DNA from: a virus
Virus record (IMG/VR): IMGVR_UViG_3300030380_006811
Coordinates: 55,076-119,075 of that record
DNA length: 64,000 nt
Strand: one strand, 5' to 3'
Shown here: positions 2 through 18,715 of the stretch, piece after piece
How positions within the stretch are numbered: the first letter of the stretch is position 1
How the letters are laid out: every line of letters begins with the position of its first letter
The notes under the pieces: generated by a model
What the model was told of the DNA's origin: nothing
Databases searched by the model: none
What the model saw: only the letters and a program-made list of their open reading frames with translations
Translations under genes and position numbers: made by a program

Positions 2-472
2 GATAATATAAATAGTTTAATATTAACCCCTTATTTAGAAAAAAAATGGGGAGTAACAAGTTATCATAACTATTCATTTGTTAGAGAATTTTGGAATAAT
101 TTTGCTTCATTATTTACATTATTTCCTTTTTATCAAGAAGGGAATAAAAATGATGAAGTTCAACAGTGGGTTAATTACTATAAAACTTCTTTAAAGTATA
201 ATTATGAAACTAATGGTGGTGTTTTTGATTTGTGGATTCAAAATAGCGAATATGCCAATGAAATTTCTAATTACCTAATTAATAAAGACAATAAATTAAA
301 CCCCTTAAACATAACAGGAACGAAATCATCATTTAAAAATTCTGAATTAACAGTAAAAAATTTGTTAAATAGAAGCCAACTTATTACCTTCCCAGATTGG
401 TTTATAGAAATGGTTAACTCAGATGAGGAATTATTAGAACTTTTAAGTAAACAACAATTATTAATATGCTAG
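2..472 (+). CDS. C-terminal part of an unrecognised protein, cut by the window edge
   Basis: An open frame runs from base 2 to a stop at 470-472 without interruption, so the gene begins outside the window; the visible part is about 156 residues. It is rich in Asn, Tyr, Phe and Trp and has no membrane segment or motif I recognise. The internal TTG or ATG codons should not be taken as the start. Its end overlaps the next gene by 7 bases, which points to one operon. With the next gene it lies directly before the C-terminal polymerase fragment, so it may belong to DNA inserted into the polymerase gene. Function unknown. Confidence 0.7.
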   Translation, partial: DNINSLILTPYLEKKWGVTSYHNYSFVREFWNNFASLFTLFPFYQEGNKNDEVQQWVNYYKTSLKYNYETNGGVFDLWIQNSEYANEISNYLINKDNKLNPLNITGTKSSFKNSELTVKNLLNRSQLITFPDWFIEMVNSDEELLELLSKQQLLIC

Positions 473-852
473 TAGAAATATCAAATGGAGAGTTATTAGA
501 TAAAGTTTCAATATTAGAGCTAAAAATGCTTAAAATTGAAGATAAAGAAAAATTAGTCAATATTCAAAAAGAATTTGATACATTAAATCCTTTAGCTAAA
601 GAATTATTTGAGCAATTTGGAGGTCAACTACAAAATCATTATCTTGAGTTGGCTCGTATAAATGGGTTATTATGGGATATAGAAGATTGGATTAGAGATT
701 GTGAACGTGAAAAGAGATTTGATGCAGAATTCACTCAGTTAGCTAGATCAGTTTATGTTACTAATGACCAAAGAAGTGAAGTTAAAAAACTTATTAATAT
801 TATGACTAAATCAGGTTTAGTAGAAGAAAAATCATATAAAGATTATAAATGA
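466..852 (+). CDS. DUF6165-like small protein
   Basis: 128 residues. The N-terminus (VEISNGELLDKVSILELK, residues 3-20) matches the pattern I remember for the DUF6165 family, in which an E-x-S-x-GE-x-x-DK-x-x-IL motif opens a helical protein of about this size; no activity is known to me. The rest is predicted helical and charged, with a Trp-rich stretch near residues 67-75. It overlaps the preceding gene by 7 bases and the following polymerase fragment by 4 (ATGA), so the three are probably translationally coupled. The family call is from memory of the motif. Confidence 0.55.
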   Translation: MLVEISNGELLDKVSILELKMLKIEDKEKLVNIQKEFDTLNPLAKELFEQFGGQLQNHYLELARINGLLWDIEDWIRDCEREKRFDAEFTQLARSVYVTNDQRSEVKKLINIMTKSGLVEEKSYKDYK

Positions 853-1805
853 AGCATTTAGAGGAAACACCTTGGTTTATTTGTGATAAGAATGATGAGA
901 ATTATTGTGCTTATGTAGATACTGATTCTAATTATTTTAATGCAGAGCCTATTCTAAAACATTTATATCCTGATTTTGAATCACTCTCAGATGAAGAAAA
1001 AGATAAGAAATTAGAAGGTGTAGCCTTAGCATATCAAGATATTATTACTGAACATTATGATAATTTAGCTACTAATTGTTTTAATGTTAAACAATTTGAG
1101 TGGTTTGATAAACCTCATTGGCTTGAAATGAAAACTGAATGTGTAATCAGATCAGCTTATTTTAGAGCAACTAGAAGATATGCCCAATGGATTACTAAAC
1201 AAGAAGGTATTGCTAAAGAAACTTTAGATATTAAAGGTCTAGAGTTTATGAAAGCAAATTTTCCACCTATTTTAGGAGATTTCTTTAATAATATTTTACA
1301 ACAAGTACTTAAAGGAGAACAACATAAAAGCATCATTGACCAGATTAAAGTATTTAAAACTCAAATTTTAGATGGAACTATCCCCTTGGCAAAACTAGGT
1401 AACCCTACTGCTGTAAAAAAACTAGATAAATATAGTGGCAAAAGTGCCCGTGCAGGTGAAATGTTTACTGAAATATTAAAAGGTGCCCCTGCTCCAGTAA
1501 GGGCAGCTATTCGTTATAATGATTTACTTAGATTATGGCAATTAGATAGAAAATATAATCTAATTACAATGGCTGATAAAGTAAAATGGATCTATTTAAA
1601 AGATAACCCCTATAAAATAGAGGCATTAGCATTCTTTGATTATGAAATGCCAGATAAAGTAGTTGATTTTTTAGATACTTATGCTGATAGACAAAAAGTA
1701 TTTGATTCAATATTATTAAATAAACTAGAGGGATTTTTTAGTGATTTAGGTTGGTCATTAAATTTAAATCCTTATGTAAACGCTTTAAAATCGTTTGAAA
1801 TTTAA
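849..1805 (+). CDS. 43: Family B DNA polymerase, C-terminal fragment (gp43-like, split gene)
   Basis: 318 residues corresponding to the end of a T4 gp43-type polymerase: last part of the palm, then thumb. Palm motif C is present as DTDS at about residues 24-27, so both metal-binding aspartates are kept. Downstream match points are the KTE...RATRRYAQW segment near residues 97-114, DIKGLEFMK near 128-136, and VRAAIRYNDLL followed by DKVKWIYLKDNPY near 217-258. The C-terminus ends in a short hydrophobic/aromatic tail (ALKSFEI) in the place where gp43 binds the clamp. Exonuclease domain, motif A and motif B are absent. The codon just before the ATG is an in-frame TAA (846-848), so the protein cannot extend upstream. 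The N-terminal half must be encoded elsewhere for an active enzyme. The clamp gene follows 100 bases later. Confidence 0.85.
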   Translation: MKHLEETPWFICDKNDENYCAYVDTDSNYFNAEPILKHLYPDFESLSDEEKDKKLEGVALAYQDIITEHYDNLATNCFNVKQFEWFDKPHWLEMKTECVIRSAYFRATRRYAQWITKQEGIAKETLDIKGLEFMKANFPPILGDFFNNILQQVLKGEQHKSIIDQIKVFKTQILDGTIPLAKLGNPTAVKKLDKYSGKSARAGEMFTEILKGAPAPVRAAIRYNDLLRLWQLDRKYNLITMADKVKWIYLKDNPYKIEALAFFDYEMPDKVVDFLDTYADRQKVFDSILLNKLEGFFSDLGWSLNLNPYVNALKSFEI

Positions 1806-1825: not shown

Positions 1826-1909
1826 TTAGGATTATGGGATGCAGTAGTAGTGGTTATATTTGTAATATCATTACCAAAAATAATTGAAGCATTTAAAAAA
1901 AGAAAATGA
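1823..1909 (+). CDS. 28-residue single-span membrane peptide
   Basis: A short frame starting MLGLWDAVVVV and ending KKRK, with one hydrophobic helix (about residues 6-20) and a basic tail, as in small phage membrane proteins. Its stop overlaps the clamp start codon (ATGA at 1906-1909), a coupling typical of real genes in this genome. It fills almost all of the gap between the polymerase fragment and the clamp. Function unknown; it could act mainly as a leader for clamp translation. Confidence 0.5.
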   Translation: MLGLWDAVVVVIFVISLPKIIEAFKKRK

Positions 1910-2631
1910 TAAGTAAACAACAATTAAGTTCAGTTATTTCAAAGTATTATTTAAATGGTTTGAATAATCAAGTAAAGTGGAGAATTAAAGATAATACACT
2001 TACAATTTATGCTGGTGAAGCAGGTAGAGTGTGTAGGGTAGTAGCTAATAATTTCCCTTTAGAAGACTCAGAGTTAGGGGTATTTGATACAAATAAATTA
2101 AATAAATTATTATCTATTACAAATGGTGATTTATTAGTATCATTAGAAAAAATGAAGGCAATTTATACTAAAATGCACATTCAGGATTCTAATTTTGATT
2201 TAACTTATTCACTAGCTGATACTTTAATTTTAGGTAAAAATACTTGGTATGATGACCCCGATACATGGGATATAGATCTAAAATTAGAAAATGAAGATGT
2301 AGATTCATTAATTAAAGCTAAAAATGCTTTAGGTGATGTGAATTCAATGTTAATCACTACAACTAATGATTTTGATGGTAATAATATTTGTGAATTTATT
2401 TTTGGTGATAATACAGGATTTTCTAATAAAATTACTTACCAAGTAAATGGAGGGGAAATAAAAGACAATACCTTAAGTATTCCATTTAATTCTGATATAT
2501 TTAAAGATATATTAAATAATAATAAAGATATGGATAGTTGTTCTTTAAAACTATCAAATACGGGGATATTAAAAATAGAATTTGAATCCGAAGATATTAA
2601 AAGTGAATATTTTGTCGCAAGAAACGAATAA
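1906..2631 (+). CDS. 45: Sliding clamp (gp45-like DNA polymerase processivity factor)
   Basis: 241 residues, close to the 228 of T4 gp45. The alternating beta-strand pattern, the KLNKLLSI segment near residues 64-71 and the C-terminal strand LKIEFESEDI followed by KSEYFVARNE match T4-type clamps. Such clamps form trimeric rings that tether the polymerase and, in T4, also activate late transcription through gp55 and gp33; a gp55-like gene lies at 40.8 kb. The position directly after the polymerase fragment and a few genes before the clamp loader (gp44/gp62) agrees with T4-like gene order. The start overlaps the preceding peptide by 4 bases. Confidence 0.85.
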   Translation: MISKQQLSSVISKYYLNGLNNQVKWRIKDNTLTIYAGEAGRVCRVVANNFPLEDSELGVFDTNKLNKLLSITNGDLLVSLEKMKAIYTKMHIQDSNFDLTYSLADTLILGKNTWYDDPDTWDIDLKLENEDVDSLIKAKNALGDVNSMLITTTNDFDGNNICEFIFGDNTGFSNKITYQVNGGEIKDNTLSIPFNSDIFKDILNNNKDMDSCSLKLSNTGILKIEFESEDIKSEYFVARNE

Positions 2632-3124: not shown

Positions 3125-3547
3125 ATGAGTACATTAGAAATCTTTGAAAGGCATATAAGTCCTTTCGATATCCTATTTAGGAATCACTTTAAATCTGACA
3201 GCGTATTTAATCCTGTCGCCAATTCAAAACAACCACACCCCCTTAATATATTCTTTGATGATCAAGGACTTCACTTTGAAGTTGCCTGTACTGGGTTAAC
3301 TAAAAAAGATGTAATTTTAGACATTGAAGGCGATATATTAAAAATAAGTTATAAAAAACCAGAAGAAGAAAAGTTTCATGAAGGAACTATTCATAATGGT
3401 TTATCTAAAAAATCATTTGATTTAAGATACAAAATTGCTCCTAAATTTGATTTAGGACAAACCGATGCATCTTTAACAAATGGATTATTAGAAATTTTTA
3501 TACCTTTAGCTGAGGAAGCTAAACCAAAAACAATCAAAATTAAGTAA
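3125..3547 (+). CDS. Small heat shock protein (Hsp20 family)
   Basis: 140 residues with an alpha-crystallin domain covering about residues 37-128. Visible family features are the strand NIFFDDQGLHFEVACTG, the KKDVILDIEGDILKISYKK block, the A-S-L-x-NGLLEIFIP end of the domain and the KTIKIK tail. Hsp20 proteins hold unfolding proteins in a soluble state for ATP-dependent chaperones. GroES and GroEL follow one gene later, so the phage carries a compact folding module. A host-like promoter precedes it and a phage-type promoter follows at 3566, so it may be expressed separately from groES/groEL. Confidence 0.85.
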   Translation: MSTLEIFERHISPFDILFRNHFKSDSVFNPVANSKQPHPLNIFFDDQGLHFEVACTGLTKKDVILDIEGDILKISYKKPEEEKFHEGTIHNGLSKKSFDLRYKIAPKFDLGQTDASLTNGLLEIFIPLAEEAKPKTIKIK

Positions 3548-3565
3548 TAAGTTTTATTAAAATAT

Positions 3566-3597
3566 GTGTCCTAGCACATTGTTTTTCGTATATTCAC
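3566..3597 (+). promoter_or_regulatory. Phage bipartite promoter before the groES/groEL operon
   Basis: GTG at 3566-3568, exactly 20 bases, then TATATTCAC at 3589-3597 preceded by TTCG. The start codon of the next gene lies 27 bases downstream. Between the boxes, ATGTG (3564-3568) and CACAT (3575-3579) can form a small hairpin. Confidence 0.65.
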
Positions 3598-3623
3598 GTT
3601 ACAAATTATAAACTAAGTTATAT

Positions 3624-3941
3624 ATGACTACTAAAAGAAAATCTATCCAAACTATAAAGGATCCATTATTAGAACCTTATTTCATTACTAAAGATGAATA
3701 TAGCTATACAGTTAAAGAAACGGTTACCTCAAATGTTGATCACTTTAGATCTAATGGTAAAAGTAAAACTTATGAAAAATCTTTATACTACTTCCCTCAG
3801 TTTGATCAGGCTGTAAATAAAATTGCAGAATTAAAAAATACAAAAAAGGATTTTAATAGTCTTAATGAATATATTGAAAATTACAAATTAATAAGAAACC
3901 AAATTAAAAATTATACAAATGGAATTAGAAGCACTGTTTGA
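3624..3941 (+). CDS. Unrecognised protein upstream of groES
   Basis: 105 residues, mostly helical and charged, with YSYTVKETV and SKTYEKSLYYF segments and a Lys/Asn-rich C-terminal half. I recognise no family. It is the first gene after the phage-type promoter at 3566 and its 3' end overlaps groES by 23 bases, so it is co-transcribed with the chaperonin genes; a link to folding is only suggested by position. Confidence 0.6.
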   Translation: MTTKRKSIQTIKDPLLEPYFITKDEYSYTVKETVTSNVDHFRSNGKSKTYEKSLYYFPQFDQAVNKIAELKNTKKDFNSLNEYIENYKLIRNQIKNYTNGIRSTV

Positions 3942-4287
3942 TGCAGTTATAGTTAAACCTCAAGAAATAGAAGAAACCACTTATGGATCTATTATTGTTC
4001 CTGATATTGGGAAGGATAGAAATGAGCACGGTACAGTAATAGCTGTTGGTCCAGGAAGACCAACCCAAATGGGGGGATTTATAGAAACCACAGTTAAACC
4101 TGGGGATAAAGTAATATTACCTACTGTTGGTTTTACAAAACTTCAACATGAAGGAGACGAATATTATATAGGCCCAGAAAACCAAATTTTAGCCAAAGTA
4201 AAACAAAAAATACAAGTTTCGGAATTATTGGAAGAAACTAAAGAAACATTAACTGAAGAAGAAATTAAAGATTTATCAAATGAGTAA
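3919..4287 (+). CDS. groES: GroES co-chaperonin
   Basis: 122 residues against about 97 for a typical bacterial GroES. The core fits: FDAVIVKPQEIEE at the start, a mobile loop around TTYGSIIVPD (residues 21-30), the HGTVIAVGPGR strand with roof region, and VKPGDKVILP. The extra length is a C-terminal acidic tail of about 25 residues (ETKETLTEEEIKD). GroES caps the GroEL ring to make the folding chamber. Its stop region overlaps the groEL start by 8 bases. T4 supplies only a gp31 co-chaperonin for the host GroEL; here the phage encodes both partners. Confidence 0.88.
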   Translation: MELEALFDAVIVKPQEIEETTYGSIIVPDIGKDRNEHGTVIAVGPGRPTQMGGFIETTVKPGDKVILPTVGFTKLQHEGDEYYIGPENQILAKVKQKIQVSELLEETKETLTEEEIKDLSNE

Positions 4288-5902
4288 ACAAGTTGTTTTA
4301 GGTTCTGAAGCAAGAACCAATTTAGTAAAAGGAATTGATATATTAGCAGATGCGGTAGTATCAACATTAGGCCCAAATGGTAGAAATGCAGTTATAGCAA
4401 ACGATCAGGGTGCTCCACAATCTACTAAAGATGGAGTTACAGTTGCAAAATCAATTTCATTAAAGGATCCTAACCAAGAATTAGGAGTTCAATTAGTAAA
4501 ACAAGCTGCAATTAAAACAGCTGAAAAAGCAGGTGATGGTACTACAACATCTACTTTATTAGCTAGAGAAATGATTAAAGCAGGATTAACAGCTTTAAAT
4601 AATAATGAAAATGCAGTTCAAATTAAAAGAGATATAGATGCTACTGTTAAAGAGGTAGTCAATAATCTAAAAAATAATATTGCGGAAGATATTTCAGGTG
4701 AGGAACAATTAGAACAAATCGCTACAATATCAGCAAATAATGATCCTGAAACTGGAAAATTAATTGCTACTGCAATAGAAAAAGTTGGAATGGAAGGGGT
4801 TGTCCACATAGAAGAATCTCGTACAGGTGAAACCTACTTAGAAACTGTTGAAGGGTTACAGTTTGATCGAGGTTATAAATCACCTTATTTTGTTACAAAT
4901 AACAATACTATGACTGCCACACTGGACAATCCCTTAATTCTAATAGCAGATCAAAAAATAACCCAAGTAAAAGAACTATTGCCTATTTTAGAGAGTGTAT
5001 CTTCACAAGCAAAATCTTTATTAATTATTGCTGAAGATATTGATAATGAAGCACTAGCAACTCTTATTGTTAATAAAATGAGAGGTACAATGAAAGTATG
5101 TGCTGTTAAAGCTCCTGATTTTGGTGATAGAAGAAAATTAGTTCTAGAAGATATAGCAATTACAACTGGTGGTCAAGTCTTTAGTAAAGAAAAAGGAATG
5201 AGGTTTGATAAATTTAGTTGGGAATGGTTTGGTGAAGCTAGAACAGCAACAATAGGTAAAGAACAAACAACAATAGTAGATGGAAAAGGAACAGTTGAAT
5301 CAATTGAAACACGTATTGAAGAACTACAGCAACAAATCGACAAAGCAACAACGCCGTTCGAAGTCGAAAAACTCCAAGAAAGACTGGCAAAATTCGTCGG
5401 AGGAGTAGCTATAATTCATGTAGGAGGAAATACAGAAACTGAAATGAAAGAGAAAAAAGATAGAGTTGATGACGCATTACACGCAACAAGAGCTGCTATC
5501 GAAGAAGGAATAGTGCCCGGAGGAGGAACGGCATTATTATATGCCTCTAGTGGCATAAAAGCTAATACAACAGGTGCACAAATTGTAGTTGAAGCATGTG
5601 CTAAACCTTTTAACCAAATTTTAGTTAACGCTGGATATGATGAAGTAAAAGGACAAATTTTAGCTGATAATTTAGTTAATTCTGGTAATGATACTTGGGC
5701 AGGATTTAATATTAAAACTGAAGAAGTAGTTGATATGAAAGAAGCAGGTATTATTGATCCTACTAAAGTAGCTAGAACAGCATTACAAAATGCAGCATCA
5801 GTAGCAGGTACAGTTTTATTAACTGAATGTACAGTAGTAGATGAACCAAGTGAAGATTCAAAACAACCACAAATAGATCCATCAATGATGGGGATGATGT
5901 AA
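4280..5902 (+). CDS. groEL: GroEL chaperonin (Hsp60)
   Basis: 540 residues, close to normal GroEL length. Equatorial-domain signatures are present: LGPNGRNAVI with TKDGVTVAKSI, the ATP-site AGDGTTTSTLLA (about residues 85-96), and late in the protein DALHATRAAIEEGIVPGGGT. The C-terminus ends in a short Met/Gly tail (MMGMM), a reduced form of the usual GGM repeats. GroEL folds proteins inside a double ring with ATP; the adjacent groES makes a full system that could fold phage capsid or tail proteins. A patch at about 5320-5530 uses more G/C-ending codons than the rest, possibly recent exchange with a different sequence. Confidence 0.93.
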   Translation: MSKQVVLGSEARTNLVKGIDILADAVVSTLGPNGRNAVIANDQGAPQSTKDGVTVAKSISLKDPNQELGVQLVKQAAIKTAEKAGDGTTTSTLLAREMIKAGLTALNNNENAVQIKRDIDATVKEVVNNLKNNIAEDISGEEQLEQIATISANNDPETGKLIATAIEKVGMEGVVHIEESRTGETYLETVEGLQFDRGYKSPYFVTNNNTMTATLDNPLILIADQKITQVKELLPILESVSSQAKSLLIIAEDIDNEALATLIVNKMRGTMKVCAVKAPDFGDRRKLVLEDIAITTGGQVFSKEKGMRFDKFSWEWFGEARTATIGKEQTTIVDGKGTVESIETRIEELQQQIDKATTPFEVEKLQERLAKFVGGVAIIHVGGNTETEMKEKKDRVDDALHATRAAIEEGIVPGGGTALLYASSGIKANTTGAQIVVEACAKPFNQILVNAGYDEVKGQILADNLVNSGNDTWAGFNIKTEEVVDMKEAGIIDPTKVARTALQNAASVAGTVLLTECTVVDEPSEDSKQPQIDPSMMGMM

Positions 5903-9461: not shown

Positions 9462-9662
9462 ATGAGTATAAAAAAAGACATGACACTTACAAGTGTTAAA
9501 GTTAAAAGCGATCTATTTGAGAATTTTAAGATTGAGTGTGTGAAACGGAAATTTTCTTTTCAAAAACTTGCCGATCGGGCTTTGTTTTTGTATCTTACTG
9601 ATGAAGATTTTCGTAAACAAATTACTAATCAAATAAATCTCGATATAGAAAATGGACAATAA
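9462..9662 (+). CDS. Small ribbon-helix-helix-like protein
   Basis: 66 residues. LTSVKVKSDLFENFKIECVKR (an N-terminal strand, then a helix) followed by SFQKLADRALFLYL resembles the ribbon-helix-helix DNA-binding fold, in which the strand reads the major groove. It lies after the nuclease gene and overlaps the first glycosyltransferase by 11 bases, so it may regulate the glycan island; this is inferred from position. No recognisable promoter is seen in the 46 bases before it. Confidence 0.6.
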   Translation: MSIKKDMTLTSVKVKSDLFENFKIECVKRKFSFQKLADRALFLYLTDEDFRKQITNQINLDIENGQ

Positions 9663-11103
9663 AAATTTTGACTATATACCCAAAGATAAAAGAAAAAAAA
9701 TTCTTTTAATTTGTGATGATATTAGAGTACATTCTGGTGTTGCTACTGTAGCAAAAGAAATAGTTACTTATACTGCAAATCACTTTAATTGGGCTCAAAT
9801 AGCTGGAGCTATTAAACATCCAGATAATGGTAAAATTTTGGACCTATCAGATGATACTAATAAAATAGCAAATATTAAAGATTCATATGTAAAGATATAC
9901 CCAGTTGATGGTTATGGAAATGAAATGATTCTTAGAGAAATAATAGGAGTTGAAAAACCCGATGCTATAATGTTATTTACGGATCCAAGATATTTTACTC
10001 ATATATGGAGAATGGAGGCAGAAATAAGGAAAATTTGCCCTATTATTTATTTAAATATTTGGGATGATTATCCTGCTCCTATGTATAATAGTCCTTTTTA
10101 TGAAGCATGTGATTTATTATTAGGGATATCTAAACAAACTGTAAATATTAATAAATTAGTATTACAAGGAAAAGAATCAAATAAGTTATTTAAATATCTT
10201 CCTCATGGTAAAAATGAAAATCTTTTTTACCCCTTAAATGAAAAAGAAAAATCTAGTAAAGAGTTTACTGATTTTAAAACTTCAATTTTTAAGAATATCG
10301 ATCCTAAATTTGTAGCATTTTTCAATTCAAGAAATATTAGAAGGAAACAAATACCAGATACATTATTAGCTTTTAGAGAATTTTTATATTCTTTACCTAA
10401 GGAAGAAGCTAAAAAGTGTTTTTTAATTTTACATACTGAAATTGTAACTGATCATGGTACTAATTTAGATAGAGTAAAAGAATATTTATTTGATGAGCAT
10501 TTCCCTGATCAAATTATTTTTAGTACTAGCAAATTAGATGAAAAACACTTAAATTATTTATATAATATAACAGATGTTCAGATGTTGTTAACTTCAAATG
10601 AAGGTTGGGGTTTAACTATTACTGAAGCTATATTAGCGGGTACTCCTATTATTGCAAATACAACAGGAGGAATGCAGGATCAAATGAGATTTATAGATAA
10701 TAAAGGTAAATGGTTTACTCCTGATGCTGATATACCTTCTAATCATAGGGGCACTTATAAAAATCATGGTGAATGGGCATTTCCTGTTTATCCAACTTCA
10801 AGATCAATTCAAGGGTCCCCTCCAACACCCTACATTTATGATGATAGATGTAAGTGGGAAGATGCTTTTGAACGTTTAAAGGAATGCTATAAGTTAGGTA
10901 GGGAAGAATTGAAACAAAGAGGTTTAAAGGGCCGTGAATGGGCTATTAGTAATGAAGCAGGATTTACATCAACACATCAAGCCAATAGATTTGTACAAGG
11001 AGTAAATGAATTGTTTAGCACTTGGAAGCCAAGAGAAAAATATGAATTAGTTAGTGCTAATGAGTATAAAGGTAAATTTTTAAATCATAAAGTTATATAT
11101 TAA
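9652..11103 (+). CDS. Glycosyltransferase, GT4-like
   Basis: 483 residues, the first large gene of the glycan island. An N-terminal Rossmann part (KKILLICDDIRVHSGVATVA) and a C-terminal half with TSNEGWGLTITEAILAGTP (about residues 314-332) show the E-x7-E pattern of retaining GT-B enzymes. These transfer sugars from nucleotide donors to glycans or proteins. There is no membrane span or signal peptide, so it should act in the cytoplasm. It overlaps the next glycosyltransferase by one base. Donor and acceptor cannot be read from sequence. Confidence 0.8.
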   Translation: MDNKNFDYIPKDKRKKILLICDDIRVHSGVATVAKEIVTYTANHFNWAQIAGAIKHPDNGKILDLSDDTNKIANIKDSYVKIYPVDGYGNEMILREIIGVEKPDAIMLFTDPRYFTHIWRMEAEIRKICPIIYLNIWDDYPAPMYNSPFYEACDLLLGISKQTVNINKLVLQGKESNKLFKYLPHGKNENLFYPLNEKEKSSKEFTDFKTSIFKNIDPKFVAFFNSRNIRRKQIPDTLLAFREFLYSLPKEEAKKCFLILHTEIVTDHGTNLDRVKEYLFDEHFPDQIIFSTSKLDEKHLNYLYNITDVQMLLTSNEGWGLTITEAILAGTPIIANTTGGMQDQMRFIDNKGKWFTPDADIPSNHRGTYKNHGEWAFPVYPTSRSIQGSPPTPYIYDDRCKWEDAFERLKECYKLGREELKQRGLKGREWAISNEAGFTSTHQANRFVQGVNELFSTWKPREKYELVSANEYKGKFLNHKVIY

Positions 11104-12374
11104 TGAATAAACCAGTTTTTGTAATAAGTTGTCCGTTTGACACCTATAGTGGGTATGGGGCAAGATCAAGAGATATAGTTAAAGCTATTATTGAATTAGA
11201 TGAGTATGATGTAAAATTACTACCACAAAGATGGGGATCCACTTCATGGGGATTTTGTAATGATCATTCTGAATGGGAATTTTTGTATAACCATCAAATT
11301 AAACAAATAACTTCTCAACCCGATGTTTGGATGCAAATAACTATTCCCAATGAGTTTAGTCCTGTAGGCAAATATAATATTGGTTGTACTGCAGGCATAG
11401 AAGCAAACGCCTGCAAACCAGAATGGATTGAAGGTTTAAATAGAATGGATATGAATTGGGTATCTTCTAATTTTGCAAAAGATACATTTGAAAATATGAA
11501 TTTTGAGAAGAAGGATAAAAGAACAAACCAAACTGTAAATGTAGTTAAAGTTGAAAAACCTATACATGTTGTTTTTGAAGGTGTAGATTTAAATGTATAC
11601 AAACCATTAAAAAATTCAGAATTAAAAACTTTTGATTTTAGTGATATTAAAGAAGATTTTTGTTTCCTATTTGTGGGACATTGGATGAATGGGGGCATTG
11701 GACATGATAGAAAAAATGTTGGAGCTTTAGTAAAACTTTTTTATGAAAGTTTCAAAAACAAAAAGAAAAAACCAGCATTAATTTTAAAATCATCAACTGG
11801 AGTAGCTGGGTATGTAAGTAGAGAAGAAATACTAGATAGAATAAAACATATCCGAAAAACTATGGATACTAAAAATTTACCTAACATTTATATACTAAAT
11901 GGAGAATTTGATGATTCAGAAATTAATGAATTATATAACCACCCTAAAGTTAAATGTATGGTAAGTTTAACTAAAGGTGAAGGATTTGGTAGACCATTAT
12001 TAGAATTTACTACAACAGGTAAACCAGTTATAGCTTCTGGTTGGTCGGGTCATGTTGATTTTCTAAAAGAACATTCAACACTATTGCCCGGAGGATTAGA
12101 AAATGTTCATCAAAGTGCTGCTAATAACTGGTTAATTAAAGAAGCTCAATGGTTTAAACCTGATATGTCAGTAGCAGTAAACGTATTTAGGGAATATTTT
12201 AAAAAACCTAAAGGTTTAAATGAAAAAGGAAAAAAACAAAAGTACTATACTAAAAAGAACTTTAGTTGGGATGAAATGAAAAAAGTAGTTAATAAACTTT
12301 TAACAGATAATCTTCCTAAATTTGCTAAACAAGTTGAACTAAAATTACCAACTTTAAACTTACCTAAATTATGA
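11103..12374 (+). CDS. Glycosyltransferase, GT4-like (second copy type)
   Basis: 423 residues. SCPFDTYSGYGARSRDIV at the N-terminus and TKGEGFGRPLLEFTTTGKP near residues 288-306 give the GT-B donor-site pattern. It differs clearly from the preceding protein, so it is a second specificity rather than a recent tandem duplicate. Cytoplasmic by lack of any signal or membrane segment. It overlaps the next gene by 4 bases (ATGA) and belongs to the same operon. Confidence 0.78.
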   Translation: MNKPVFVISCPFDTYSGYGARSRDIVKAIIELDEYDVKLLPQRWGSTSWGFCNDHSEWEFLYNHQIKQITSQPDVWMQITIPNEFSPVGKYNIGCTAGIEANACKPEWIEGLNRMDMNWVSSNFAKDTFENMNFEKKDKRTNQTVNVVKVEKPIHVVFEGVDLNVYKPLKNSELKTFDFSDIKEDFCFLFVGHWMNGGIGHDRKNVGALVKLFYESFKNKKKKPALILKSSTGVAGYVSREEILDRIKHIRKTMDTKNLPNIYILNGEFDDSEINELYNHPKVKCMVSLTKGEGFGRPLLEFTTTGKPVIASGWSGHVDFLKEHSTLLPGGLENVHQSAANNWLIKEAQWFKPDMSVAVNVFREYFKKPKGLNEKGKKQKYYTKKNFSWDEMKKVVNKLLTDNLPKFAKQVELKLPTLNLPKL

Positions 12375-12814
12375 AATACGATGCCCTAAAGGAATGCACT
12401 AGATGTGGATCAGATGCTTGTTACACCCAGGAAGTAACTAAAGATATTTCTATTGAAATGTGTTATGGGTGTGGATTTCAAAGTAATAGCGTAATTAAAA
12501 AAGGAAATGATTTTTTTAATGAACAATTTGAAACACTCCCTGAATTGTATAAGGAACTAATGGATGAAGAAGAAGATACAGGTAAAATATGGATGCCCAC
12601 TATTATCAATTTAAAAGATAAAGGCATGGTGTTTGCAGATGGAACTGGAAGGGATAATTGGAAATGGGCTGCAGTTAAAGTAGCTAAAGTACTAAAAGAA
12701 GAAAAAGAGAAATTTAAAGGCCAAAAATATAAACCTGATATGTCAACTATAAAACACTACTCAGAACGTGAGTTTATAGAAGCACTTTCGTATATTGGTG
12801 TTTTACCTGAATAA
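12371..12814 (+). CDS. Zinc-ribbon-like protein of unknown function
   Basis: 147 residues. CTRCGSDAC near residues 9-17 and CYGCG near 31-35 form a four-cysteine ribbon at the N-terminus. The rest contains a YKELMDEEED segment and a VFADGTGRDNWKWAAVKV strand-helix part. Small zinc-ribbon proteins of this type occur in marine T4-like phages; function is unknown to me. It sits between glycosyltransferases in an operon with 4-base overlaps, so its role may be tied to that island or simply to its transcription unit. Confidence 0.55.
   Translation: MKYDALKECTRCGSDACYTQEVTKDISIEMCYGCGFQSNSVIKKGNDFFNEQFETLPELYKELMDEEEDTGKIWMPTIINLKDKGMVFADGTGRDNWKWAAVKVAKVLKEEKEKFKGQKYKPDMSTIKHYSEREFIEALSYIGVLPE
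12768..12799 (+). promoter_or_regulatory. Candidate internal phage promoter inside the zinc-ribbon gene
   Basis: GTG at 12768-12770, exactly 20 bases, TATATTGGT at 12791-12799 preceded by TTTCG. It matches the bipartite class in spacing and in the CG before the -7 box but lies in coding sequence. It would drive the GT2 gene at 12816 and those after it. Confidence 0.35.
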
Positions 12815-12815
12815 T

Positions 12816-13439
12816 ATGAAAATAAGTTATGCTATTACAGTTTGTAATGAATTTGTAGAAATTCAAAATTTAGTTTCATTCCTTCTTAAATATAAAAGAA
12901 GCAAAGATGAAATAGTAATTTTATATGATTCCAAAAATGGTGATGAGGGGGTTGAAGAATTTTTAAGATCTCATTCTGTAAATAATGATTTTATTTGGTA
13001 TGAAGGAGATTTTAATAACCATTTTGCTGATTGGAAAAACCATCTAACGTCTTTATGTAATGGTGATTATATTTTTCAAATAGATGCTGATGAAATTCCT
13101 CACCAAACATTAATTGAAAATCTACCAGTAATTTTAGAAGGTAATCCTGATAATGAAGTTTATTTAATTCCTAGAGTTAACACAGTAGAGGGTTTAACAC
13201 AAGATCATATTAATAAATGGAGATGGAATGTTAATGAAAAAGGATGGGTAAATTGGCCTGATTATCAATGGAGACTTTGGAAAAATAAACCAGAAATAAA
13301 ATGGATAAATAAAGTTCATGAAAGATTAGAAGGGTATAAAACGTATGCTCATATTCCTCAAGTAGAAAGGCTAGCTTTATATCATCCAAAAGAAATAGAA
13401 AGACAAGAAAAACAAAACGAATATTACAATACATTATGA
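12816..13439 (+). CDS. Glycosyltransferase family 2-like
   Basis: 207 residues from the ATG at 12816, right after the previous stop. MKISYAITVCNEF at the N-terminus and the metal-binding DAD in FQIDADEIP (about residues 88-96) mark a GT-A fold, inverting GT2-type enzyme. The Trp-rich C-terminal part ending in NKVHERLEGYK is typical of short GT2 proteins related to LPS core enzymes. Cytoplasmic. The end overlaps the dehydrogenase gene by 4 bases. Confidence 0.8.
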   Translation: MKISYAITVCNEFVEIQNLVSFLLKYKRSKDEIVILYDSKNGDEGVEEFLRSHSVNNDFIWYEGDFNNHFADWKNHLTSLCNGDYIFQIDADEIPHQTLIENLPVILEGNPDNEVYLIPRVNTVEGLTQDHINKWRWNVNEKGWVNWPDYQWRLWKNKPEIKWINKVHERLEGYKTYAHIPQVERLALYHPKEIERQEKQNEYYNTL

Positions 13440-14263
13440 TAGGGATTATAGGACAAGGGTTTGTAGGTAATGCTATATATCAAAAATTTAAAAACTTTTT
13501 TGATGTAAAAACGTATGATTTAAAAGTAAAATTATGTAATTCAACATTTGAGGAAGTTGCCAGACAAGATATTATATTTGTTTGTTTACCAACACCAATG
13601 GATAAAGATGGAAGTTGCCATATAGGTTTAGTAGAACAAACACTTCATAATATATCAGTTGCTAAATCACCAAATTTATTTAGAACAGTAGTAATTAAAT
13701 CAACAATCCCTCCAGGTACAACAAAAAAACTAAACGTTAAATATCCAAATCTACATATAGCATTTAATCCTGAATTTTTAACTGAAGCAAATGCAGTATT
13801 AGATTTTGAAAACCAAAACAGAGTTATCTTGGGAGGACATAGAGAAGCAACCACTAAACTCAGAAGAATATACTCAAAAGTATTTCCCACAGCTCATATT
13901 ATTAAAACATCTTCTACCCATGCTGAAATGGTAAAATACTTAACAAATGCTTTTTTAGCTACTAAAGTATCATTTGCAAATGAAATGTATCAAATATGTG
14001 AAGGATTAGGTGTTGACTATGATAAAGTTATAGAATATGCTATGTTAGATGACAGACTAGGAAATACTCATTGGAACGTCCCAGGACCAGATGGAGATTT
14101 TGGATATGGAGGACATTGTTTTCCTAAAGATATTAAAGCATTAATTAAAGTAGCAGAATCTTTATCTGTTCATCCTACTGTATTAATATCAACTAATACA
14201 AAGAATAATGAAGTTAGGGTTAATAAAGATTGGGAAAATATGAAGGGAAGAGCAGTAATATAA
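13436..14263 (+). CDS. UDP-sugar 6-dehydrogenase, short form
   Basis: 275 residues. Nucleotide fold GIIGQGFVG (Gly6, Gly8, Gly11), VCLPTPMDKDG, the STIPPGTT turn, FNPEFLTEANA, and the catalytic cysteine in GGHCFPKD (Cys228). These are the hallmarks of UDP-glucose or UDP-ManNAc dehydrogenases, which oxidise the sugar C6 alcohol to a carboxylate in two NAD-dependent steps. The usual C-terminal UDP-binding domain (about 100 residues) is missing: the protein stops about 47 residues after the catalytic cysteine. Either the substrate is held differently or another protein completes the site. An epimerase follows 10 bases later. Confidence 0.82.
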   Translation: MIGIIGQGFVGNAIYQKFKNFFDVKTYDLKVKLCNSTFEEVARQDIIFVCLPTPMDKDGSCHIGLVEQTLHNISVAKSPNLFRTVVIKSTIPPGTTKKLNVKYPNLHIAFNPEFLTEANAVLDFENQNRVILGGHREATTKLRRIYSKVFPTAHIIKTSSTHAEMVKYLTNAFLATKVSFANEMYQICEGLGVDYDKVIEYAMLDDRLGNTHWNVPGPDGDFGYGGHCFPKDIKALIKVAESLSVHPTVLISTNTKNNEVRVNKDWENMKGRAVI

Positions 14264-14273
14264 TTATAAAGGA

Positions 14274-15317
14274 ATGAAAAATACAGTATTAATAACAGGT
14301 GTAGCAGGTTTACTAGGTAGTCGCTTAGCTGATTGGATAATTCAAAACCAACCAAATACAACAGTAATTGGTGTTGATGATTTAAGTGGAGGCTTTGAAG
14401 AAAATATCCACCCAGATGTTAAATTTTGGCAAATGGATTTAGTTAACCACCCAATTGAAAACATATTTGAAGCACATAAAATTGACTATGTATATCATTT
14501 TGCGGCATATGCTGCTGAAGGGTTATCGCCTTTTATACGTGGATACAATTATGATAACAACTTAAAAGCAACAGCACGCCTAGTTAATGAATGTATAAAA
14601 CATGACGTTAAAAGATTGATTTTTACGTCTACTTTAGCTGTATATGGTCATGGTTATGGTGGTATATTTGATGAAAAACAACAACAAGCACCAATTGATC
14701 CTTATGGGGTAGCAAAATATGCTTGCGAAATGGATATTCAAATTGCAGGTGAACAACATGGTTTAGATTGGTGTATAATTAGACCTCATAATGTTTATGG
14801 TATTAAACAGAATATCTGGGACAAATACAGAAATGTACTTGGTATCTGGATGTTCCAGTATTTAAATGGTATGGATATAACCATATTTGGTGATGGTGAA
14901 CAAACAAGAGCATTTAGTTATATAGATGATTCATTAGAACCATTATGGAATGCTGCTGTTAAACCTGAGGCAAGTAAGGAAATTATCAATTTAGGTGGAA
15001 TAAAAAGTTATCCTATAAATGTGGCAGCTGAGACGTTAGTTGAAGTATTACAGGAAGAAGAAGGTATAAGTGATTTTGAAATCCCAATTTTATATCTAGA
15101 AGGTAGACATGAAGTAAAACATTCAATCCCTACATGGCAAAAATCAATTGATATATTAGGATTTGAACATAAAACTGATCTAAAAGAAGGATTAAGACAA
15201 ATGTGGAATTGGGCTAAAAAACAACCTATGAGAGATAGATTTGTTTGGCCTAGTTATGAATTAGAAAAAGGTATATATAGTTTTTGGAAAAATGAAACTA
15301 AAAAAATTAATAAATAA
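14274..15317 (+). CDS. NAD-dependent nucleotide-sugar epimerase/dehydratase (extended SDR)
   Basis: 347 residues. The TGVAGLLGSR glycine motif (Gly9, Gly12, Gly15), the acidic residue pair in GVDDL, catalytic Ser/Thr in TSTLAVYG and YGVAK (Tyr144, Lys148) are all present. Family members include UDP-glucose 4-epimerase, UDP-glucuronate epimerase and decarboxylase. Placed directly after a dehydrogenase, it may act on the UDP-uronate product. The last 26 bases overlap the next gene. Confidence 0.85.
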   Translation: MKNTVLITGVAGLLGSRLADWIIQNQPNTTVIGVDDLSGGFEENIHPDVKFWQMDLVNHPIENIFEAHKIDYVYHFAAYAAEGLSPFIRGYNYDNNLKATARLVNECIKHDVKRLIFTSTLAVYGHGYGGIFDEKQQQAPIDPYGVAKYACEMDIQIAGEQHGLDWCIIRPHNVYGIKQNIWDKYRNVLGIWMFQYLNGMDITIFGDGEQTRAFSYIDDSLEPLWNAAVKPEASKEIINLGGIKSYPINVAAETLVEVLQEEEGISDFEIPILYLEGRHEVKHSIPTWQKSIDILGFEHKTDLKEGLRQMWNWAKKQPMRDRFVWPSYELEKGIYSFWKNETKKINK

Positions 15318-16086
15318 AAGTTATTATTGTTCTATAGGTTATATAAGTAGTGAAGATGATCTCCCACTCCTAGAAAGATATATATTACATAATTTACCTG
15401 TCCTTAAAGAGTTTAAACAACATATAATAGTTACTAATTACTCAGGTGACTATAAAACTCAAAATTCTGAATTATGGGTGAAATATTTCCCTAATTGTAT
15501 ATTAATAGACTTAGAAAAAAATAGAGGTCATTCATTTGGGATAGCAGATCAAGAAAATACTATAATTGATTATTGCCACAAAAACAATATTAAATGGATC
15601 TGTAAGTCGGCACATGATGTAATTTTTACTAAAGAAATATTAAATACTAAAATTGATAAAGATAATGATTTTTATTATATGAATGGTATTGGTTATGGAG
15701 GAATGGAAAAATATAATTTTGATTTAGATAAAGTTGAAAAAAATGATTTTTACCCCCAGACAAATTTTTATTTTTTAAATACAAGTAAAATAGATTATCT
15801 TTATGATAAAAAATATGTAGATGAAACTTATGATTATATCCAAGATATAGAAGATTATAACGGAAAAGTTTGGCATTATATTGAAGGGTGGTCATGTGAG
15901 GATTTTTTAAAAAAATGTATTATTAGGAATAATTTATCTAAATATCACTTGATCCCAAATGAAAAATATCGTATATTATTAGAAACAGTAAAAACAGAAA
16001 AGATTATAGACTCCAGCCATAAAAATATTATGATAGAAGGAATATGCCACTATCAAAATGCTAATGAACCAGTTTTAGTTATATGA
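15292..16086 (+). CDS. Glycosyltransferase-like protein
   Basis: 264 residues. SYYCSIGYISSEDDLPLLER at the start, a HIIVTNYSGD strand, a NRGHSFGIADQENTIIDY segment and KWICKSAHDV resemble phage GT-A proteins, but no clear DxD is visible; the SAHD position might take its place. Its location between the epimerase and a glycosyltransferase-methyltransferase fusion supports a sugar-transfer role. It overlaps neighbours by 26 and 4 bases. Confidence 0.55.
   Translation: MKLKKLINKSYYCSIGYISSEDDLPLLERYILHNLPVLKEFKQHIIVTNYSGDYKTQNSELWVKYFPNCILIDLEKNRGHSFGIADQENTIIDYCHKNNIKWICKSAHDVIFTKEILNTKIDKDNDFYYMNGIGYGGMEKYNFDLDKVEKNDFYPQTNFYFLNTSKIDYLYDKKYVDETYDYIQDIEDYNGKVWHYIEGWSCEDFLKKCIIRNNLSKYHLIPNEKYRILLETVKTEKIIDSSHKNIMIEGICHYQNANEPVLVI
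15949..15980 (+). promoter_or_regulatory. Candidate internal phage promoter
   Basis: TTG at 15949-15951, exactly 20 bases, TATATTATT at 15972-15980 preceded by CG. It lies inside the coding sequence about 100 bases before the fusion gene at 16083. Same class as the intergenic sites; in coding sequence the case is weaker. Confidence 0.3.
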
Positions 16087-17366
16087 GAGTAATTTATAGA
16101 ATATCAGACGCAGGTTATAAAAAAGAAAAACCTAATTATATTAATAATGAAAAATGTTTGTATAATGCTGCCCTTACATTTCAACAAGCACAATGGAGTA
16201 TTATAGCAGATAATATATCGGCGGATACTGATGATATGATTCAGAAATATTTTAAAAAACACCTTATTAAACATGTTAATGTGGGTCATGGAGCTGGTAC
16301 TTTTAATTTAGCATTAGATGAAGCATTAACTTATGATGATGATGAAATAGTATATTTTATAGAAAATGACTATTTACATAAACCTATTTCATTTAGAGTT
16401 TTAAATGAAGGATTTAAGTTAGGAGCATCATTTGTGTCATTATATGATCATCCAGATAAATACCTTGATCCCGAAAAAGGAGGAAATCCTTATTGTAAAG
16501 GTGGAGCTGAAGATACAAGAGTTTATTTAACAAATTCTTGTCATTGGAAAATAACAAATAGTACTACTATGACTTTTGCAGCTAAAGTATCTACATTAAA
16601 GCGTACAGAAAAAATACTTCGTAAACATACTAGTGAGAGACATCCTAATGATTTTAAAATGTTTTTGGAATTAAGAGCAAATAATGAATTATTAATAACT
16701 CCCTTACCTGGATACTCAACACATGGAGAAACAGCTTGGTTAACACCTTTAACAAACTGGAAAAATTATGATTACGAAAAATCCACTAAAAGTTTACAAG
16801 AAATATTTGAAACTCACTCAGCACAAGCTAGGGGAAAAATGAGATGGGGTGCAGGGCATGGAGATAAAGGTACTGTACATTCTTACATCCCTGAGTATGA
16901 AAGATTATTTAGTCCTTATAGAGACAAAAAAATTAATTTTTTAGAAATTGGTGTTGCTTTTGGTGAATCTTTAGAAATGTGGTACGAATATTTTTCAAAA
17001 GAATCTAAAATACATGGCTTAGATAACCAAACTAAAGAAATAGCAACAAAATTAGAAGATAATAGATTTGATATCACTATAGAGGATCAAACAGATCCTA
17101 ATATTGTATCTAAATTAGGTAATAAAAAATTTGATATTATTTTAGATGATGGTAGTCATGTTTTTGAACACCAAATAAAATCATTTCATTTACTAAAAGA
17201 TAGTATTAATAAAGGAGGTCTTTATGTAATTGAGGATATTGATAATATAGATGAAAAGTATAATGATTTTATGGAATTAAAAAAATATTGCTTAGATTGT
17301 GAAATTATAGATCTTAGAAAACAAAAAAATCGCTATGATGATGTTATAGCAGTATATAAATTTTAA
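16083..17366 (+). CDS. Glycosyltransferase-methyltransferase fusion
   Basis: 427 residues. The N-terminal half (about 1-240) looks like a GT-A domain: IYRISDAGYKKEKPNYI at the start, then YFIENDYLHKPIS as a DxD-like site. The C-terminal part (about 270-427) is a class I SAM methyltransferase: INFLEIGVAFGES is the SAM-binding loop (near residue 285), IHGLDNQ carries the acidic ribose contact, and IILDDGSHVFEHQ is the next core strand. Fusing the two suggests transfer of a sugar and its methylation, or cluster-wide methylation. A separate methyltransferase gene follows 4 bases later. Confidence 0.72.
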   Translation: MRVIYRISDAGYKKEKPNYINNEKCLYNAALTFQQAQWSIIADNISADTDDMIQKYFKKHLIKHVNVGHGAGTFNLALDEALTYDDDEIVYFIENDYLHKPISFRVLNEGFKLGASFVSLYDHPDKYLDPEKGGNPYCKGGAEDTRVYLTNSCHWKITNSTTMTFAAKVSTLKRTEKILRKHTSERHPNDFKMFLELRANNELLITPLPGYSTHGETAWLTPLTNWKNYDYEKSTKSLQEIFETHSAQARGKMRWGAGHGDKGTVHSYIPEYERLFSPYRDKKINFLEIGVAFGESLEMWYEYFSKESKIHGLDNQTKEIATKLEDNRFDITIEDQTDPNIVSKLGNKKFDIILDDGSHVFEHQIKSFHLLKDSINKGGLYVIEDIDNIDEKYNDFMELKKYCLDCEIIDLRKQKNRYDDVIAVYKF

Positions 17367-17369
17367 ATT

Positions 17370-17924
17370 ATGACAAAAGAACAACACTTACAACACTTAG
17401 AAAAAATGTCTCGAGCAGTTACTGGGGAAGTAGATTATGATAACCATTGGCAAGTATTAAAATCAATGTGTGATATTGCAAAACCAAAAAATATCCTAGA
17501 GTTAGGATTTAATAGAGGATCTAGCTGCTTAATGTTTTTATACGCTAGTGAAGCCCAAATACATAGTATAGATATACTACCAGAAATAGCAGTTCAAAGT
17601 TCATTAGAAGAAATAAATAAACATTTTGGTGATAGATTTAAATATACTACACTTGATCATAAGGATATAGGAGGACAAATAGATAATTTTAAAGATAAAT
17701 ATGACTTTGTTTTTATAGATGGAAATCATACCTATGAAGGGATGCTTAGAGATGCTAAAAACGCTATTAGTATGAATGCTAAATACTTAGGTTTTGATGA
17801 TTATTACCACCCAGCTCATAGTAAGGATTGTCATAAAATAGTGGAAGAATTAGGATTAGAAATGGTAATAGAATACAAAAATTATACGGGTCAAGCATTA
17901 ACTATAAATCCAAACCATCAATGA
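17370..17924 (+). CDS. Class I SAM-dependent methyltransferase
   Basis: 184 residues, a compact single domain. ILELGFNRGSSCLMFLY (residue 43 on) is motif I, IHSIDI motif II, YDFVFIDGNHTYEGMLRD motif IV and a downstream metal-site-like DDYYHP. The Methyltransf_24 type fits best by eye; relatives methylate sugars or small molecules. It is flanked by glycosyltransferases and overlaps the next gene by 4 bases, so a sugar substrate is likely. Confidence 0.78.
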   Translation: MTKEQHLQHLEKMSRAVTGEVDYDNHWQVLKSMCDIAKPKNILELGFNRGSSCLMFLYASEAQIHSIDILPEIAVQSSLEEINKHFGDRFKYTTLDHKDIGGQIDNFKDKYDFVFIDGNHTYEGMLRDAKNAISMNAKYLGFDDYYHPAHSKDCHKIVEELGLEMVIEYKNYTGQALTINPNHQ

Positions 17925-18715
17925 TATCAGTAATAATACCAACGTATAGAAACCCAGAATATTTAGATATTTGTTTAAAATCAGCTATTCAATATCAAAG
18001 ATATAGTAATGAAATTATTGTAGCAGTAGATGGTTATATAGAAGAGAGTCAGTCTGTATTAGATAAGTATAAAGATAATATCAAAATATTAGATTTAGGT
18101 GAAAATCAAGGAATGCAACAAGCTCTTAATTTAGCTGTGATGAATGCTAGTAATGAAATCATTTTTGTTGTTAATGATGATAATGTATTTTGTGTTGATT
18201 ATGATTTAGCCATTGAGAAAAACATAAAAGAAAAATCAGTACTTACCTTAAATCAAATTGAACCAGAAGGTCCTGGCATTTTTAAATTTCCAGTTAAAGA
18301 TTTTGGACGTACCCCAGAAGCATTTGATTATGATGCGTTTATAGAGTATGAACAATCAATTAGAAAAGATGAGCTAACTATTGATGGTGGTATTTTTCCA
18401 TTTGCTATGTACAAGAAATATTATATGGCTGCTGGTGGATTTGATGTAATGTATAGATCTCCTTTTATTTGTGATTGGGATTTTTTCTTAAAGTTAGATT
18501 TAATGGGTCTTAGTTTTAATAGAACACATGAAGCACACTTATATCATTTTGGGAGCACAGCAACTAAAAATGGTAAAGAAGGAATAAGATTTAAAGAATC
18601 AGAACGACCAGCAGCTGAATTATTTAATTATAAATGGGGTCACCCACCATCATTATTTAAAAATAATTCACATAGTCCAAAAGGAAAAACCATAAAAGGT
18701 ATAAAGTATTGTTAA
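17921..18715 (+). CDS. Glycosyltransferase family 2
   Basis: 264 residues. MISVIIPTYRNPEYLDICLKS is a classic GT2 start, FVVNDDNVF the metal/donor site (about residues 84-92) and AAGGFDVMYRSPFICDWDFF the acceptor-side segment. Inverting GT-A fold, cytoplasmic. It is the last gene of the island: a phage-type promoter follows within 10 bases and begins a new unit. Confidence 0.85.
   Translation: MISVIIPTYRNPEYLDICLKSAIQYQRYSNEIIVAVDGYIEESQSVLDKYKDNIKILDLGENQGMQQALNLAVMNASNEIIFVVNDDNVFCVDYDLAIEKNIKEKSVLTLNQIEPEGPGIFKFPVKDFGRTPEAFDYDAFIEYEQSIRKDELTIDGGIFPFAMYKKYYMAAGGFDVMYRSPFICDWDFFLKLDLMGLSFNRTHEAHLYHFGSTATKNGKEGIRFKESERPAAELFNYKWGHPPSLFKNNSHSPKGKTIKGIKYC

Follow-up and report, generated by a model that had tools for sequence, protein, structure and literature searches.

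In a widespread group of T4-like marine viruses, the family B DNA polymerase is very probably encoded as two proteins, with the chain cut just before the catalytic centre. The window, that is, the whole stretch of 64,000 nucleotides analysed here, corresponds to bases 55076-119075 of a source record of 119,075 bases and carries the gene for the C-terminal protein. The enzyme is read as the sole replicative family B polymerase of the virus, made as two non-covalently assembled chains, and a rough probability of 0.87 is given to this reading; we infer the assembly and activity of the chains, the coupling of their translation and the order of events from sequence comparison.

Profile matches show that the open reading frame 849-1805 encodes the C-terminal portion of a family B DNA polymerase of the T4 type (phrog_262, DNA polymerase, positions 565-842, E=7e-40; phrog_1918, E=9.5e-39). 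The 318-aa product begins with MKHLEETPWFICDKNDENYCAYVDTDS, and DTDS occupies residues 24-27. The first-pass annotation, made from the letters of the window, had placed the start of this fragment about 20 residues ahead of motif C; the exact figure is 23. The in-frame TAA that it described directly before the ATG was present (Table 1). The ATG overlaps the stop codon of the preceding DUF6165 gene (ATGA, 849-852), and because of this stop/start overlap translation of the C-half is probably coupled to that of the DUF6165 gene. The gene on the 3' side of the C-half, whose product had a single match (phrog_12062, "unknown"), keeps its place beside the polymerase in relatives of both kinds, split and intact, and probably encodes a sliding clamp. 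Farther downstream (3125-5902), Hsp20, GroES-like and GroEL-like genes were observed; GroES and GroEL also follow the polymerase in the intact relative L232.

Table 1. Coordinates of the polymerase halves, the genes between them and the adjoining features
Feature	Window position	Strand	Other coordinates	Length	Remarks
polB N-half	-2549 to -840		G000:C1:52527-54236	569 aa	Exonuclease, motifs A and B
Probable membrane protein (by eye)			G000:54238-54531	97 aa	First junction gene
Junction-specific gene			G000:C1:54531-54797 (L003:4531-4797)	88 aa	Second junction gene
Gene without family match	2-472 (3' part)	+	Start at G000:C1:54801, outside the window	248 aa	Third junction gene
DUF6165 gene	466-852	+		128 aa	Fourth and last junction gene; PF19662, E=2.7e-14, above its cut-off
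In-frame TAA	846-848	+			Shuts the C-half frame right before its ATG; leaves no possible upstream start
polB C-half	849-1805	+		318 aa	DTDS (motif C), RRYA (KKRY-equivalent), thumb; RB69 gp43 616-897 by profile
Putative sliding clamp	1906-2631	+		241 aa	Directly 3' of the C-half; by position and resemblance

The N-terminal half, which was to be sought upstream of base 1, was found there, 840 bp beyond the edge of the window and 1.69 kb (1,687 bp) upstream of the C-half. Its motifs A and B read DLTSLYPS and KILLNSLYG, and its C-terminus is ...RHMNKVMRGDIKLKI. PF03104 matched this half (E=1e-20), and on phrog_262 the two halves covered positions 93-567 and 552-843, that is, the profile from end to end. 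Four small genes (97, 88, 248 and 128 aa, in this order) fill the space between the halves. The upstream neighbours had been described as an unrelated protein and a DUF6165-like gene, and this was borne out by the PF19662 match and by the 248-aa gene without a family match, the end of which opens the window. The DUF6165 family was also found in the junctions of many relatives. The description of a polymerase with other genes in between thus holds for the window but not as a defining feature, since many relatives have no gene there.

The position of the cut was established by profile placement on RB69 gp43. Because the N-half profile ended at about residue 612 and the C-half profile started at residue 616, the break is placed in the loop between the helix that follows motif B and the palm strand that bears motif C (approximately RB69 613-616), in agreement with the earlier claim of a break between motifs B and C. 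Between them, the two halves cover RB69 gp43 essentially without a gap, and in each of the 134 distinct pairs described below the C-chain reaches the end of DTDS at its residue 27. Since the residues across the junction numbered 53 (median) in split pairs and 51 in intact relatives, no sequence was lost there. RB69 gp43 was the best PDB match of the AF2 models of both the N-half (pLDDT 84, E=3e-30) and the C-half (pLDDT 70, E=7e-8). The C-half model was poor around motif C, with residues 1-26 and 92-135 below pLDDT 50; such low confidence would be expected if the N-chain were needed at this place.

Relatives were gathered by scans of IMG/VR and GTDB genomes. Both halves were readable at 218 split loci (some contigs are represented twice), and 134 distinct complete pairs were obtained. 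In 49 of these pairs, the insert was absent altogether and the two cistrons overlapped by stop and start codons (ATGA or TAATG); 3 pairs had a gap of at most 50 bp, 14 had an insert shorter than 300 bp, and 68 had a longer one, up to 4.2 kb. Since the same C-half start and the same loop recurred across the 134 distinct pairs, the split is more than a chance event. An assembly error at the junction had been named as a possible refutation; the junction was seen again in contigs from numerous samples, among which two types of stop/start overlap occur, and judged from these sequences the split is neither an assembly error nor a pseudogene.

Intact relatives were represented by L232 and L314, which were fully readable (888 aa), and by the partial locus L315. 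The neighbourhood GTP cyclohydrolase-polB-clamp-GroES-GroEL was shared by the intact L232. One change between the intact and split states and approximately eight changes between the insert-bearing and insert-free states were found on a tree of 80 rows, which carries a long-branch warning. A smaller C-half tree that also included the partial loci L315 and L316 carries the same warning and needed two changes, as the split L316 paired with the intact L315 (support 91/90; the critical branch is not firm). One main split in the clade is therefore likely, with a second split or a refusion allowed by the partial C-half tree. A 986-aa fused frame considered for L373 was rejected because the sequence has stops and is divided by the 88-aa gene. 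Of five MAG contigs, two had been placed in Flavobacteria bins, a weak hint of the host.

The two halves show signs of forming a functional enzyme that is under purifying selection and whose parts diverge together. Exo I, motif B, motif C and RRYA were present in 134 of 134 distinct pairs, motif A in 132 and the strict exo II pattern in 115. The exonuclease motifs, the palm motifs A, B and C and an RB69-like fold were thus all found, as in T4-type family B polymerases (gp43). In comparisons of the window with six near relatives, dN/dS was 0.06-0.10 for the N-half and 0.04-0.09 for the C-half. Distances among N-halves and among C-halves of 71 representatives were correlated with r=0.86, the best of 999 permutations reaching 0.14. 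A complete gene 43 elsewhere had also been named as a refutation. When the window's own 119 kb record and near-full-length relatives (155-164 kb) were searched with a family B profile, the two halves were the sole hits; these records may be incomplete.

In the proposed enzyme, the N-chain would bring the exonuclease, motif A, the fingers and motif B, and the C-chain would bring the thumb together with motif C (DTDS), which supplies the palm's second metal-binding carboxylate. Because the break falls between the motif B helix and the motif C strand, the palm would have to be rebuilt through packing between the chains. The split would date to the ancestry of the marine T4-like clade and would survive in its simplest form as two adjacent, translationally coupled cistrons with an ATGA or TAATG overlap. 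Later, the junction would gain the 88-aa gene and then cargo such as DUF6165, sugar-modification genes and others.

It is very improbable that the halves are rejoined into one chain by a trans-splicing split intein, an RNA intron or a programmed frameshift. The vicinity of polymerase motif C is a known site of split inteins and introns, and inserts resembling inteins or homing endonucleases occur at this place in a sister clade (LR756508, L134, L137, L190 and L209). However, no intein profile matched the halves of the window, and there is no room for IntN and IntC parts, since the N-half stops about 10 residues past the helix and the C-half begins 23 residues before motif C; the remark that no intein motif is visible at the junction was accordingly correct. 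RNA splicing, another of the proposed refutations, found no backing either: no group I or group II intron was matched in the junction by Rfam at E<=1, an Rfam search of the junctions of the window and its relatives and of the interrupted sister loci yielded nothing of note, and 49 of the 134 pairs lack any DNA to splice out. In overlapping members, the C-frame is open just 1-9 codons upstream of the ATG, and a frameshift cannot bridge the 1.69 kb between the halves of the window. Because trans-splicing, RNA splicing and frameshifting fail, non-covalent assembly would be the remaining reading, and the proposal that the enzyme is made as two chains gains from the recurrence of 134 pairs. Just as improbable is a decaying remnant in a phage that relies on another polymerase, its own or that of the host. 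The best records are not proven complete, and two relatives carry a weak Pol A-like match below the cut-off; nevertheless, the low dN/dS (0.04-0.10), the catalytic motifs retained in the 134 distinct pairs, the conserved neighbourhood with a probable clamp and a clamp-loader-like gene, and the lack of a second family B polymerase in the 155-164 kb relatives all argue against decay.

Other proposals concern the origin of the split and the role of the junction. A homing-endonuclease gene may have entered the loop before motif C and then been lost, leaving the ATGA junction as a scar; this plausible but tentative account bears on the origin only and is compatible with the two-chain enzyme. It is favoured by a GIY-YIG homing endonuclease in the L303 junction (167-994; phrog_314, E=3.5e-23), by a GIY-YIG-type T5orf172-domain gene in the junction of L316 (144-624; E=2.7e-21), a lineage outside the main split clade, and by split-plus-endonuclease arrangements in the same loop in the sister clade. 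Among published systems, phage 25 has a seg gene inside its split gene 43 (PMC2988022), and erratic intein excision was proposed as the origin of archaeal split PolB (PMC4104785). However, nuclease genes were found in just 2 of the 103 distinct inserts read and are possibly late arrivals, and in the main split clade the deepest-branching lineages show an overlap with nothing inserted. The present cargo (DUF6165 and others) was rejected as the cause of the split, given the insert-free overlapping relatives and the tree.

The 88-aa protein, which matched no Pfam or PHROG family, was found at 121 of the 134 loci that have an insert, where it invariably lay between the halves, and at none of the 84 insert-free loci; within the loci examined, its family was seen only between polymerase halves. 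This confinement would suit a third subunit of the polymerase, acting as a bridge or chaperone for both chains. Such a role is nonetheless unlikely, as the 84 split loci without the protein in the sequence examined indicate that it is not generally required, and the position of the gene may merely mark a mobile or hitch-hiking gene. The cargo assigned by family comprised DUF6165, a mannose-6-phosphate isomerase-like cupin, DegT aminotransferase, NAD-dependent epimerase and a PALP-type PLP enzyme; methyltransferase-, glycosyltransferase- and sulfotransferase-like sequences were recognized by eye alone. Genes, several of them for sugars, appear to have entered the junction repeatedly after the split. 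A broader but still rather doubtful idea is that, with the enzyme already working as two chains, the gap between its halves turned into neutral ground and a recurrent, possibly mobile docking site, where recombination in conserved flanking sequence exchanges genes, several for surface sugars; the 88-aa protein would then be a third subunit or would belong to the exchange machinery. No tRNAs that could be recombination targets were found near the junction. Sugar-modification blocks (DegT aminotransferase, glycosyltransferase-like, acetyltransferase-like) were observed in the middle of the polymerase in L038, L046 and L055 (4.2 kb) and in L019 and L020 (2.9 kb). The N-half was C-terminally extended in L019, L020, L038 and L055, ending in ...EQPRPMW. 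The window itself has a cluster of glycosyltransferase-like, sugar dehydrogenase and epimerase-like open reading frames at 9652-18715, identified by eye.

Split family B polymerases are already known. The closest tested precedent for the two-chain enzyme, which in the window clade is read from sequence, is that of Aeromonas phages 44RR and 25, likewise a two-chain family B polymerase of the T4 type: gp43A and gp43B are produced from adjacent cistrons and were reported to co-purify and to be active, and in phage 25 a freestanding endonuclease gene occupies the gene 43 gap (PMC2988022, reviewing Petrov et al.). The window resembles 44RR in having two cistrons, no splicing and selection on both. 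However, alignment and the boundaries of phrog_2062 and phrog_1918 place the 44RR break between motifs A and B, in the fingers, with B and C both on gp43B, whereas the window clade is cut about 60-80 residues later, after B and before C; this site is fixed throughout a large clade and accommodates up to 4.2 kb of cargo genes. The first-pass statement that gene 43 is split in a few T4-like phages is therefore sound as to precedent but does not extend to the break site. In archaea, motif C lies on the small subunit of the split PolB of Methanobacteriales, that is, the break is in the same region, and the PolB of Nanoarchaeum equitans is broken at motif C. The former, encoded by two genes in M. 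thermautotrophicus (Kelman et al. 1999, as cited in PMC4104785), is an archaeal cellular enzyme and an unrelated event; the parts of the latter could be trans-spliced by a split intein (PMC4104785), whereas the window clade has no intein parts. Microcystis phage Mel-JY01 and other intact T4-like relatives (L232/L314; L136-L213) have the same enzyme in a similar neighbourhood (identity in the C part 33% for Mel-JY01 and 48% for L232) but as one chain of about 830-890 aa. A Far-T4 survey mentions no split, and a jumbo-phage survey describes a split Pol III alpha and no split PolB (PMC4360716, PMC7824862; open literature only). What appears to be new here is the break between B and C together with a large natural series, with an earlier report possible beyond the open literature.

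The palm active site of family B polymerases requires the aspartates of motifs A and C, and across this large natural clade these aspartates lie on separate chains. It thus becomes possible to ask how a cut through the catalytic core is tolerated, whether chains can be exchanged and how fidelity or processivity is affected. The series from the intact gene through overlapping cistrons and one extra gene to 4.2 kb of cargo represents a stepwise dismantling of a gene without a sign of lost function. Annotation pipelines may mislabel such phages as polymerase-truncated.

Cuts in the same loop were also seen outside the main split clade. In the uncultured huge phage LR756508, polB is cut in this loop and several genes lie between the parts, but intein-like inserts are present in motifs B and C; because this phage is closest to a mostly intact clade, its break is probably independent. 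At this locus (L088, LR756508.1:256000-270000), the N-part has a Hint/intein-like insert in motif B and the C-part an intein-like insert in motif C; no viral relatives of the C-part were found when it was searched alone. A few loci of the sister clade in IMG/VR (L137:6958-8012, L147, L149, L151, L190:6960-8012, L191 and L209:2599-3862) likewise appear to have been cut in the same loop independently. The interruption is about 1.0-1.25 kb long and contains an endonuclease-like open reading frame (NUMOD3 in L209, E=7.6e-22), and five nucleotides, TAACT (TAATG in L209), fall precisely where the DT of motif C meets the following D. A strong hairpin lies beside this gap (z -6.6, -6.1 and -3.0; -0.3 in the intact L136), and in L137 and L190 the gap is flanked by Thr codons (ACC/ACG ... 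ACT). By analogy with T4 gene 60, DTDS would be regained in L137 and L190 through a five-nucleotide translational bypass; the TAATG of L209 could instead allow translation to start anew at MDSVF.
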